A DNA stretch of 18,703 nucleotides, from assembly GCA_014762585.1 (NCBI GenBank), contig JABURN010000067.1, positions 1-18,703 on the forward strand, in the 5' to 3' direction. Origin of the DNA: Methylophaga sp. (lineage in GTDB: Bacteria; Pseudomonadota; Gammaproteobacteria; Nitrosococcales; Methylophagaceae). A program made the translations under genes and the position numbers. Below are positions 173-17,158 of this stretch, piece by piece. The notes below the pieces were generated by a model. The model made no database searches, had not been told where the DNA came from, and saw only the letters and a list, made by a program, of their open reading frames with translations. The number at the start of each line of letters is the position of its first letter. Position 1 is the stretch's first letter.

Positions 173-613
173 TTGAGCCAAGACACGGTCCGACCTAAAA
201 CCCTGTCCCTGATTATAAAAAATCAGACCTCCGAGATAGCCAGAATGAGCCTGTGGCTGACAGGCAGTCTTGGACGCTGCGGCCTGTCGCGTGAGATGCA
301 GTTTAAATTTGACCTCTGTGCCAATGAAGCGGTCACAAACATTATTTCCTATGGCTATCCCAGAGGGGGAGAGCATGACATCAACCTGCAGTTACAGGTA
401 GAGACAGATAGCGCCATCTTGACCATTGAAGATGACGGCATCGCCTTCAACCCCACCGAGAATCCGGCACATGTTCAGCCTGAAAGCTTACAGGAGGCCA
501 AGGTGGGGGGATTGGGAATTGATTTGATCCGGCACTATATGGATCAGGTCTGCTATCGCAGAACAGCCGGTCTCAACAGGCTATCAATGCAAATGAAACT
601 GGCAGAAAGTTGA
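173..613 (+). CDS. RsbW/SpoIIAB-like anti-sigma serine kinase (HATPase_c)
   Basis: A 146-aa cytoplasmic GHKL-type kinase. The N-box is seen as ANEAVTN (E52, N56), the G1 box as EDDGIAF (D88, G89) and the G2 box as GGLGIDL (112-118). Length and motif order match the RsbW/SpoIIAB family, which phosphorylates the STAS antagonist and sequesters a sigma factor or another partner. The start is TTG at 173. It is preceded by GAGG at about 9 bp, and it keeps the first beta strand and helix (residues 9-35) that the fold needs; the internal ATG at 245 would delete them. It lies 12 bp after the STAS gene. In Gram-negatives such pairs often control biofilm or motility rather than a stress sigma factor; the c-di-GMP and chemotaxis genes further along fit that, but this is inference. 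Confidence 0.88.
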   Translation: MSQDTVRPKTLSLIIKNQTSEIARMSLWLTGSLGRCGLSREMQFKFDLCANEAVTNIISYGYPRGGEHDINLQLQVETDSAILTIEDDGIAFNPTENPAHVQPESLQEAKVGGLGIDLIRHYMDQVCYRRTAGLNRLSMQMKLAES

Positions 614-629
614 TTACAGCAATCCATAA

Positions 630-663
630 AAAAGGCCCGATATCGTCTGATAACGGGCCTTTT
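630..663. terminator. Bidirectional intrinsic terminator
   Basis: A perfect 10-bp stem (AAAAGGCCCG at 630-639, CGGGCCTTTT at 654-663) with a 14-nt loop. It sits 16 bp after the anti-sigma kinase stop and 18 bp from the TolC-family stop, between convergent genes. The T-run is longer when read on the minus strand, so it serves the TolC gene at least as well as the kinase gene. Confidence 0.88.
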
Positions 664-13896: not shown

Positions 13897-15885
13897 TCAC
13901 ACCCGGTTGGCTCCCCAGCTTTTAATAATGCGCTCGGAAACGGCTTCCAGCTCCTCGGGGGGGACAGACCCCATCATGCCGGGTTCGAGCGGGTCAAAGT
14001 GGAAGATATATAAACGTGAGGCAAACTGTTCGAAAGGCAATGATGCTTCGCCGGAACGCTCGGAATTCCCGGCCGTGCTGACCAGAATGTCGTCTCCCCA
14101 GTTCTGACCACTGTCATTGTTCGGATTATAGAAATACACCCGCATGACATTTTCCTGGTCCAGCGCCACCCGCAATATCGTGATTGCATGCCAGCCAATA
14201 AAGCGCATCGCACTATCGGTAATCGCCACACCCGCCGGCTGTGGATGAATCAGCGGCTGATTGCCGTTATAGAAAGGATGGTAACTGGCATAAAACTTTC
14301 TCAGAAAGTCTTGCAGCTGATGCAATTTGCCGGTGGCCACATCGACATTGATGGCAAAGCCCCGGCCGCACCACCAGCCGTGAAATTCGGGGTTGACCCA
14401 GCGGTGCGGATCGCCCTCCCTATCTGCACAGCGCCTGCCCATCTCAGCATAGATGCGATCGAGATGCGGGACCAGAATCAGGGATACCGGATCGAGATCC
14501 ATCGGCAATTCCTTGGCAATACCGGCCACACTATCCCGGGATGAAATCGACTGCCCCTCGAAGTGCATGATGACTTCATTATCACGCGCCGCGCTGACCA
14601 CCAATTGCAGAAGATAATCAGGATCGCTGTAAGCCCACATCGATATCGCCCTGGCCGACTGGCAGGTTGGATTATTACCCTGCCCAACGCCCAGTGGCAG
14701 TCCCAGTACACAAAGGACACCGCCCAGAAGGCGTGCTTCAGGTGTCGGCTGATCCCCGAACAGAAGACTCAAACGCTGACTGGCCTCGGCTGATAATGTG
14801 AGCGACAGTTGCCGCCACAATGAGGGAGCGACGGCTGGCTGATACAAAATACAACGTTCGAGCAGTAATGACAGGCCGTAAATCGCCTGCGCAGACTCAG
14901 GGTGAACCGCCTTATCAATCAGTGCCCGCACCAGATCAATGAAACTTAACAGGCAGTCCCGTCCCGTTGATGACAGGCCCAACGCCTCTGAGAGCAAGTG
15001 GTCACTATTGTCAGAAACAAAACGCAGTAATACTGCGTGATAGGGCGACACCAGACCGGTGTCATGCATGGCGCGTGCAAAGCCGGTTGCCTCATACTGC
15101 AATGTCGGTGCATCCATGGTCTCCAGCCGCGACAGGTAGACTGCCACGCCGGGATCTTCCCTTGACGCCTGCGTTGCACCATAGAGGCTACTGATCAGGC
15201 GATCCGCACCATGCCCACTCTGCCCCAGATCAATGTCCGGATTTTGCTGGCAAATCGCGATCTGGGTGACCATCTGTTTAATCTGATCAACCTGAATCGG
15301 CCGCTGCTGCAGAATTCGCCAGATCTCATCGATCAGCTGTTCAATAATGTATTCGTAACCGATACGCTGAGCCAGGTACTGCAGCAGATTACGGCTGATT
15401 TTTGCCAGTTTGCCCTGTGTTTCGCGTTCCGCTTCGCTGGGCACCGAAAACAGCATCTGCAGATTGACGGCAAGAATATGCGTCAGATGATGATGCGCCT
15501 GCTCGGCAGAAATCGCCTCATGTCGATATGCGCCACTGGCCACGGCAAGCAGACGCAAATCACTCAAGGCCTCAATCAACACCGTGTCGGCATCCGGGCT
15601 TTTCAGCGCATGGACACTGAGCGAGGGGACCAGAATCTGTGGCTGGGCATAGTCAGTGTTCTTGAACAGACCAGCCCGCTCGATCCGCTCAATATAGCGC
15701 TCAAGCAGCTCACATCCGCCTTCCGACTGAATGATCCGTTTGGCCGTATCATAAAGGCGGCGCACTTTGGTCGCCTTGGAAAAGTCAGGCGCCTCATCCA
15801 GTGCCGTGATGGCGTCTTCCAGCCTCTCCACCAGATGCGGTTGTGTCATCTCAATGGTATTGGCTTGACTAGCTGTTTCAACCAA
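13897..15885 (-). CDS. Uncharacterised protein with papain/calpain-like Cys-His-Asn signatures
   Basis: A 662-aa protein I do not recognise by name. No signal peptide or convincing membrane helix, so cytoplasmic. Residues 1-390 are alpha-helical with no known motif. The C-terminal part looks like a papain-fold cysteine hydrolase. GQGNNPTCQSARAIS places Q402 exactly six residues before C408, as the oxyanion Gln and nucleophile are spaced in papain and calpain. H566 is followed by A in GWHAITI, like the papain HAV. N587 in YFYNPNNDSGQNWGDD resembles the calpain NPWG segment. Order Cys-His-Asn is correct. EFHGWWCGRGF (501-510) is another conserved-looking patch. Start is TTG at 15885 with AAGGA 6-7 bp upstream. 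It lies 28 bp downstream of the ATP-grasp gene, so the two are an operon. Peptidase, amidase or transglutaminase-like activity is inference. Confidence 0.75.
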   Translation of the reverse strand: MVETASQANTIEMTQPHLVERLEDAITALDEAPDFSKATKVRRLYDTAKRIIQSEGGCELLERYIERIERAGLFKNTDYAQPQILVPSLSVHALKSPDADTVLIEALSDLRLLAVASGAYRHEAISAEQAHHHLTHILAVNLQMLFSVPSEAERETQGKLAKISRNLLQYLAQRIGYEYIIEQLIDEIWRILQQRPIQVDQIKQMVTQIAICQQNPDIDLGQSGHGADRLISSLYGATQASREDPGVAVYLSRLETMDAPTLQYEATGFARAMHDTGLVSPYHAVLLRFVSDNSDHLLSEALGLSSTGRDCLLSFIDLVRALIDKAVHPESAQAIYGLSLLLERCILYQPAVAPSLWRQLSLTLSAEASQRLSLLFGDQPTPEARLLGGVLCVLGLPLGVGQGNNPTCQSARAISMWAYSDPDYLLQLVVSAARDNEVIMHFEGQSISSRDSVAGIAKELPMDLDPVSLILVPHLDRIYAEMGRRCADREGDPHRWVNPEFHGWWCGRGFAINVDVATGKLHQLQDFLRKFYASYHPFYNGNQPLIHPQPAGVAITDSAMRFIGWHAITILRVALDQENVMRVYFYNPNNDSGQNWGDDILVSTAGNSERSGEASLPFEQFASRLYIFHFDPLEPGMMGSVPPEELEAVSERIIKSWGANRV

Positions 15886-15913
15886 ACCGGTTCCTTATCG
15901 CACCGCTGGTGCT

Positions 15914-17158
15914 TTACACATAAAAGTCCAGCGACTCTTGATGTTTCAATAGATCACGCATGGTTTCTGCGTCGCTGCCGAAAAAGTATACCAAACCCCA
16001 ATGGGTACCAAAGGCGGTGCGCTTGGTCACTGTCTCTTCCAGCGGCGCGGTCAGCTCATGGTAATTAAAATAGGCATGCCCCTCGGTTTCGTCCGGAATT
16101 TCCAGCTTGCTGACCACCCGGCGTCGTGGGTAAACCCCGAAGCAACCGGCATGGCCTTTGGCGTCGACCACTTCTTCCGGGAAGAAGTCGTCAATCTCTT
16201 CCTGGCTGGTTTTCGGATCGAAAGACAGGATCAGCCCCTGATAGGCATTGAAACCGTAGGCCTGCTCCAGTAATTCAAATACTTTGAAGCCGGGGGGGCG
16301 ATAGGCCACTTCACCAAAGTACATCTCGCCATCACTGGTGACAAAGTACTCGGGGTGAATAAAGCCGAAATCGATATCGAAGGTTTTGATCAGCTTTTCA
16401 ATCTGTGCCTTGATCTGCGGTCGGTATTTTTCCAGTTCCGGTGAAGCCGGCACAAATACCGAATAGCCCAAAGTCACGTACTCGGAGATATTCAGAAACT
16501 GAATCTTGCCGTCATGTACCCAGGCTTCAACAGCAAATTCCCAGCCATCCAGGTGGGATTCCATCAGTACCGGGAATTCCTCATCGGGAATCATATCGAC
16601 TTCATCCGGTGTGCGGATGACCCGGTGACCAAGACAACCGGCTTTATCAAAAGCTTTCAGGTGAATGGGGTCATTGGGGTCACCATCCAGTTTAAGCAGG
16701 GTCTGGTTCACCCGTTTCAGAAAACGAATCACATCCTCTTTGTCATGGGCTTCTTCAAAAATGCCCACCCGAATACCGCCCAGCTGCGCACGGCGTTTCA
16801 TTAAGGCCTTGTCGCGCAGTAACAAGGACTGGCCAAACAGTTTGGGGTTATCCAGCAATACTGAGTTGATTGCCCCGGCCCATTCCACAGTTTCCTCGAA
16901 CAACGGAATAGCGACATCCACGCCCTTTTCCTTCAGCGTTTGAGCGATTTCCATTGAGCGATCATTGAGACGCTCGAAATTCCACTTGATATAGGGAATG
17001 TTATGCGTCTCGCAATATTCTTCTGCCCAGTCGGGCGCTACGACCACGTAGCGTCTGTCGAATTTTTCCGCTGCTTCGACCGCATTGAGACTCCAGCCCA
17101 GAAAGGCGACATAGCCTTTGTCAGGGTTTTTTGTTCTGTTTTTGGTTTCGGACATCAT
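15914..17158 (-). CDS. ATP-grasp superfamily carboxylate-amine ligase
   Basis: A 414-aa cytoplasmic ligase from the chosen ATG at 17158; GAGGA lies just before it, whereas the more upstream ATG (17188) has no ribosome site. Residues 15-110 look like the N-terminal pre-ATP-grasp Rossmann-like domain (YVAFLGWSLNAVEAAEKF). The ATP-grasp fold follows: K168 in HLKAFDKAGCLGH for phosphate contact, the nucleotide-binding E200 in PVLMESHLDGWEFAVEA, HPEYFVTSDGEMYF with E270, and E283 in GEVAYRPPG for Mg and acyl-phosphate chemistry. Such enzymes join a carboxylate to an amine through an acyl-phosphate. The substrate is not visible. The last 80 residues (340-414) are an extra domain. It is the first gene of an operon with the papain-like gene. 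The 222-bp region upstream is full of hairpins. Confidence 0.88.
   Translation of the reverse strand: MMSETKNRTKNPDKGYVAFLGWSLNAVEAAEKFDRRYVVVAPDWAEEYCETHNIPYIKWNFERLNDRSMEIAQTLKEKGVDVAIPLFEETVEWAGAINSVLLDNPKLFGQSLLLRDKALMKRRAQLGGIRVGIFEEAHDKEDVIRFLKRVNQTLLKLDGDPNDPIHLKAFDKAGCLGHRVIRTPDEVDMIPDEEFPVLMESHLDGWEFAVEAWVHDGKIQFLNISEYVTLGYSVFVPASPELEKYRPQIKAQIEKLIKTFDIDFGFIHPEYFVTSDGEMYFGEVAYRPPGFKVFELLEQAYGFNAYQGLILSFDPKTSQEEIDDFFPEEVVDAKGHAGCFGVYPRRRVVSKLEIPDETEGHAYFNYHELTAPLEETVTKRTAFGTHWGLVYFFGSDAETMRDLLKHQESLDFYV

Follow-up and report, generated by a model that had tools for sequence, protein, structure and literature searches.

The window, a stretch of 18,703 nucleotides from Methylophaga sp. 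(assembly GCA_014762585.1, contig JABURN010000067.1), carries on its minus strand a gene for an ATP-grasp ligase and, just downstream, a gene for a 662-aa papain/calpain-like protein that we call CysP. Because two such enzymes are kept together with nothing else, the making and unmaking of one bond is the best explanation of the pair, and we tentatively favor the reading, which may well prove wrong, that they form a self-contained, horizontally mobile and cytosolic writer and eraser (ligase and hydrolase) acting on a single amide bond. The features of the pair are as follows.

13897..15885, minus strand: CysP, 662-aa papain/calpain-like protein (open reading frame (ORF) list, family searches, model, structural matches)
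CysP residues ~1-370 and ~370-632, minus strand: helical N-terminal part and catalytic domain, respectively (AlphaFold2 model)
14680..14682, minus strand: Q402 codon, putative oxyanion-hole glutamine (Q in 321/321)
14662..14664, minus strand: C408 codon, putative nucleophile (C in 321/321)
14188..14190, minus strand: H566 codon, putative general base (H in 321/321)
14125..14127, minus strand: N587 codon, putative third member of the triad (N in 321/321)
15914..17158, minus strand: ATP-grasp carboxylate-amine ligase, 414 aa (ORF list, profile matches; the mechanical ORF reaches 17188)
16349..16351, minus strand: E270 codon, putative metal ligand (20/20; aligned to E of 3vot and 4wd3)
16310..16312, minus strand: E283 codon, putative metal ligand (20/20; aligned to E of 3vot and 4wd3)
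16298..16300, minus strand: R287 codon, conserved arginine (20/20; aligned to R of 3vot and 4wd3)

The adjacency of the two genes, from which the first-pass annotation of this DNA proposed a possible undescribed two-gene pathway, extends across genera, and most of the checks that could have refuted that proposal turned out in its favor. Among 80 CysP loci from named genomes (the best 80 of 562 confirmed, 55 of them from Halomonadaceae), the ligase gene lies just upstream on the same strand in 79, with a contig end cutting the ligase in a few, and the pair is present in all 25 loci outside Halomonadaceae. The lone exception, L018, has no ligase upstream of CysP (region L018:7400-8000); a 78% identical ligase is encoded elsewhere in its genome (G657:C23), and this CysP may use it in trans. 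Of 274 genomes sampled evenly across the class, 8 encode CysP and these 8 are also the ones with the ligase, and among 398 genomes of the phylum both are found in the same 11 (the window's own genome is included in both samples). Counted by genus, 7 of 213 have both, which would be expected by chance at about 3 in 10^13 when genera are taken as independent and linkage is ignored.

The two proteins also diverge together: distances among CysP sequences correlate with those among ligases (Mantel r 0.858, with 0 of 2000 permutations as high) over 91 distinct pairs, a correlation to which common descent contributes and from which L008, L018, L035, L049, L054 and L055 had been left out beforehand. 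Gene order is less uniform in the wider set of loci, where we found divergent (L144, L145, L146, L148) and convergent (L098) arrangements and one reversed pair with a 1.38-kb gap (L100). Nine rows of the CysP alignment were labeled as having no ligase in the fetched stretch: eight (L018, L087, L132-L135, L138 and L139) truly have no adjacent ligase, and in the ninth, L088, the stretch is short and the ligase lies 1.38 kb on. All nine keep the four catalytic residues.

Copy numbers are not always matched. Genome G334 has five full CysP genes and one fragment against two ligases, G435 has four against two, G314 and G573 have one against two each, and G399 has three of both. Three of these genomes, G334, G399 and G435, belong to family f174 (L131-L139, L144-L147), in which 3-5 full CysP paralogs accompany 2-3 ligases and three diverged CysP copies stand head to head with a diverged ligase. 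The fragment in G334 (L140, G334:C10:1017443-1017610) covers the last 56 residues only, at 48% identity within a 67-aa open frame, and is perhaps a gene remnant. Lone diverged ligases (77-78%) with no CysP beside them occur at L142:7781-9160 and L143:7744-9123; the one CysP of each of these genomes is accompanied by a different ligase.

As first described, the ligase gene is followed after 28 bp (15886-15913) by a protein with no recognized family, and library searches agree: CysP had no match in Pfam at E<=1 and none above the cut-off in NCBIfam, and its sequence and three profiles searched against solved structures returned nothing, or only chance and designed helical proteins. The gene starts with TTG, and AAGGA, read by eye, lies six bases 5' of it. 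The closest named relative by locus scan is Methylophaga thiooxydans, with an 85% identical CysP, and our first homology search (7999 scored) found at least 2904 homologous proteins at E<=0.001; the libraries searched give this family no name, and it appears to represent a new papain-like enzyme that is regularly partnered by a ligase. One homolog, P0329, carries the UniRef label 'Zorya protein ZorC EH domain', for which a Pfam search of P0329 gives no backing.

The residues picked out in the initial reading, Q402-x5-C408, H566-A and N587-P, are where they were said to be and give CysP the order of Cys, His and Asn, with a Gln before the Cys, of the papain-like peptidase superfamily. All four are invariant in 321 of 321 aligned homologs (307 once contained sequences are dropped), whose identity to the window's CysP reaches down to about 40%. 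In this alignment C408 is the sole invariant cysteine of the eight in CysP, the other seven being retained in 7-98% of sequences; H494 and H566 are the only invariant histidines, with H536 and H629 in 320 of 321.

The predicted structure bears out the helical N-terminal part, seen over residues 1-390, and suggests that the catalytic domain resembles calpain. In the AlphaFold2 model, built from a diverse alignment of 93 sequences with a mean predicted local distance difference test (pLDDT) score of 85.8 (54 when built from 22 close homologs), helix 409-420 begins right after C408, H566 sits on strand 562-575, and N587 comes directly after strand 581-586; residues 401-407 have a pLDDT below 50. 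The best 18 structural matches of CysP residues 370-632 are all calpains, with a Z score of 7.3, below what the tool counts as safe, and the same residues are matched by several further papain-like peptidases. Calpain has the exact Q-x5-C spacing, and its core (family C2, PF00648) resembles CysP in this spacing and in the order of H and N. The active site of Cys, His and Asn with a Gln before the Cys is described in passages of a paper on bacterial calpains (PMC4631099), the main text of which makes no mention of Halomonas, Marinobacter or ATP-grasp enzymes.

CysP differs from calpains in its helical N-terminal part, in its partner ligase gene and in having no PF00648 match: none was found for CysP itself at E<=1, among the families matched by 22 aligned members (E<=10) or by five diverse members, in the window's own genome, or in the carrier genomes G314 and G334. 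Because this test failed we do not class CysP as a calpain, though it may work like one. Comparison of its profile with that of three bacterial calpains gave a probability of 0.2%, and of 0.0% for the N-terminal half, a result of little weight: both profiles are shallow (effective number of sequences 1.9 and 1.5), and L156, a fourth calpain locus, was left out since its active site was not found by pattern. A search of viral predicted structures with CysP gave nothing at E<=0.001, with papain-family names among the weak rows.

The ligase active site, called intact in the first-pass annotation, is indeed so at the positions compared: E270, E283 and R287 are invariant in 20 of 20 aligned members (73-89% identical to the window's ligase) and align with the E, E and R of solved L-amino-acid ligases, the glutamates being putative metal ligands and R287 the conserved arginine. 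We place the start at 17155-17158 because database copies are mostly 413 aa. Against PF13535 the protein scored 24.9 bits by hmmscan, where the cut-off is 27, and 27.4 bits together with its neighbors in the genome search, a borderline pass; many homologs carry PF13535 precomputed. A profile of the 20 relatives matched the solved ATP-grasp structure 4dim and the L-amino-acid ligases 3vot and 4wd3 at E 0.00017-0.0025. The likeness to the L-amino-acid ligases (PF13535; 3vot, 4wd3) is weak but consistent, with E values of 0.0019-0.0025 for these two, and the window's ligase stands apart from them, as judged from sequence, in a separate subfamily whose partner gene is conserved. It has 2153 database homologs, of which those among the matches listed (120) are 83-100% identical.

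Between genera, the ligase is much more conserved than RpoD. In five Methylophaga genomes, RpoD is 89-92% identical to that of G160, the window's sister genome in the same genus, and the ligase is 86-92% identical to the window's, about equal to RpoD or slightly below it. In 11 genomes outside the genus, RpoD is 58-65% identical (over residues 221-610 only in G286) and the best ligase 75-89%. The RpoD query came from G160 and the ligase query from the window's genome, in whose 85.7% complete assembly RpoD was not found. Moreover, the ligase is 84-85% identical in at least six records named Mycobacterium, Mycolicibacter, Rhodococcus, Streptomyces or Pseudonocardia, and in a quick midpoint-rooted tree six ligases of Actinobacteria group on a single branch nested among those of Proteobacteria (SH-aLRT support 94, where the mark is 95). 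CysP and the ligase both occur in Pseudonocardia-labeled records (P0185, P0335); a search of a plasmid collection gave no close relative outside Halomonas. Because the ligase exceeds RpoD in conservation between genera and reaches 84-85% in Actinobacteria, horizontal transfer, at least once between phyla, is suggested as the simplest reading. Strong constraint that puts a hard ceiling on the ligase's divergence could act instead of transfer or in addition to it. Whichever product the pair makes, this conservation needs explaining.

Together, these data are consistent with the following mechanism. ATP-grasp enzymes form amide bonds through an acyl-phosphate, and papain-type enzymes form an acyl-enzyme from an amide, which is then resolved by hydrolysis or transfer. 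The ligase would spend ATP on converting a carboxylate to its acyl-phosphate and join this activated group to an amine, giving an amide or peptide bond; C408, polarized by H566 and N587 and with Q402 in the oxyanion hole, would attack and cleave a bond of the same class. The pair would in this way add and remove one amino-acyl or peptidyl group on an acceptor, presumably a protein or peptide, which the helical N-terminal part of CysP may bind. The analysis itself shows the catalytic residues, the likeness in fold, the co-occurrence and adjacency of the genes and their correlated divergence; we infer, beyond this, that both enzymes act on the same bond and that CysP hydrolyzes it and does not transfer the group. 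Both proteins probably act in the cytosol, because no leader sequence is apparent by eye in either; no signal or membrane segment was apparent by the same inspection.

The strongest competing explanation, possible though rather unlikely in our view, is a two-step biosynthesis in which a peptide or amide formed by the ligase is trimmed or transferred by the papain-fold enzyme (transamidation, transpeptidation) to yield a small product, and is not taken apart again. Co-occurrence, adjacency and the catalytic evidence fit it too, and papain-fold enzymes include transferases. A two-gene pathway would, however, be short, and beside the pair we see no wide conservation of another biosynthetic gene, of a transporter or of a precursor. 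Among the 60 largest clusters of neighboring ORFs (>=90 aa) we found no widely conserved third gene: most clusters are confined to Halomonadaceae, a cluster of 45 loci has one Cellvibrionaceae locus beyond that family, and a few clusters of 3-5 loci reach 2-3 families. One cluster of 20 loci spans four families; it lies at the ligase's place on the opposite strand and is probably a chance antisense ORF. No precursor of a ribosomally synthesized and post-translationally modified peptide was found, in keeping with the first reading of the window, among the 12 largest clusters, all of them within Halomonadaceae, that were built from 2861 small ORFs of 20-89 aa lying no more than 1.5 kb from the pair; this leaves room for a precursor in a smaller cluster or farther away. 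Should the product be a small molecule, marine and salt-lake bacteria would have in it a new metabolite.

The writer and eraser that we favor could take a more specific form, unlikely as formulated: reversible protein modification, in which the ligase attaches a short peptide or a single amino acid to a conserved protein of the cell and the calpain-like eraser, through a repeat-like recognition part, takes it off, the two-gene cassette being spread across phyla and expanded in Marinobacter. Tubulin tyrosination in eukaryotes would be analogous to such a cycle. Switches built from a ligase and a peptidase are known mainly from eukaryotes, and a modified protein as product would make the pair a bacterial counterpart of them.

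An osmolyte or envelope function had been raised from the window's flanking genes, a BCCT transporter, a porin and a CmpX-like protein (MS_channel_1st_1), and neither link held up in the comparison of loci. In its osmolyte form, which we regard as quite doubtful, the ligase would make a dipeptide-like compatible solute in salt-loving bacteria and CysP would recycle it. The named relatives are mostly from genera such as Halomonas, Vreelandella, Marinobacter, Alcanivorax and Methylophaga, which live in saline or marine places, and a BCCT gene is close to the pair in the window, in its sister, in L011 and in L021, as well as near the lone ligase of L142. Against this, a relative of the BCCT gene is near the pair in only 2 of the 80 loci, the ligase is also present in Mycobacterium, Rhodococcus and Streptomyces, and an identity above 80% between phyla seems more than a solute enzyme would need. 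The genomes concerned are rich in BCCT-type transporters, and their occurrence near the pair may be chance. As for the envelope, a CmpX-like relative is near the pair in 1 of the 80 loci, the flanks differ between lineages, and a hairpin followed by TTT, seen by eye and not listed by the consensus scan, stands upstream of the pair after the CmpX-like gene; the pair may be a transcription unit of its own.

It is improbable that the calpain likeness is superficial, such that CysP would be a helical protein with a mixed domain whose unchanged residues serve binding or metal chemistry. A single family fills the top of the structural ranking while other papain-like peptidases fall on the same residues, and the Cys heads a helix with His and Asn on or just after strands. 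A conflict or defense module, with the peptidase as effector and a target modified or armed by the ligase, would suit the patchy distribution, the likely transfer between phyla and the several copies in some genomes, and is very improbable given that PADLOC-DB 2023 holds 0 families matching either protein at E<=10, that no CysP relative was found in viral contigs and no phage match of the ligase, that conservation is high rather than showing arms-race divergence, and that no consistent defense neighbors were seen by eye.

Pairs of a ligase and a hydrolase are already known from glutathionylspermidine metabolism, RimK/RimB and RloABC, but with other peptidase or ligase families. In glutathionylspermidine synthetase/amidase, an ATP-grasp ligase and a papain-fold amidase act on one amide bond; there the CHAP amidase and the synthetase are fused and come from other families, and neither CysP nor the ligase of the window has a CHAP or GSP-synthetase Pfam match at E<=1. 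The RimK/RimB and RloABC systems of Pseudomonas, as presented in passages of one paper, encode an ATP-grasp ligase with a peptidase that is an aspartic retropepsin, RloA being secreted and RloB a membrane protein, and the Rlo peptidases matter under hypoosmotic stress (PMC12239564). Unlike these, the pair described here combines the ligase with a papain-like cysteine enzyme that looks cytosolic, and lacks a membrane partner; CysP has no Pfam match and an invariant Cys-His-Asn set in place of a retropepsin-like aspartic peptidase, and no other gene is widely conserved with the pair. Predicted protein-modifying ATP-grasp enzymes of the R2K/CDC123 clade, also spread by horizontal transfer, are treated in a paper whose main text lacks the words peptidase, papain and protease (PMC4431377); by the definition in that source alone, they are a different ATP-grasp clade from the window's ligase. 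A further paper reports 21 papain-like families as newly assigned (PMC10318531). We found no published description of the pair in the open-license literature, most subscription papers being outside this scope and an earlier mention there being possible, and the pair points to an undescribed joint pathway. The pair's small size, cytosolic look and occurrence in halophiles and methylotrophs that can be cultured put its product within direct reach of deletion, metabolomics and proteomics.

Some minor observations concern the surroundings of the pair. In two Alcanivorax loci (L011:10755-12806 and L021:10813-12864), the gene order of the window recurs: a BCCT transporter 67-68% identical to the window's comes after the pair, on its strand and no more than 0.9 kb away. 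In Halomonadaceae, small-ORF clusters pointed to a conserved stretch upstream of the pair, which we set aside as a gene candidate: in L012 (Aidingimonas) it corresponds on the other strand to a small signal recognition particle RNA gene (Rfam RF00169, L012:6348-6444) beside the pair. The same stretch is seen by eye in L013, and 12-16 Halomonadaceae loci share the small-ORF clusters found at this place. Insertions often target RNA genes.

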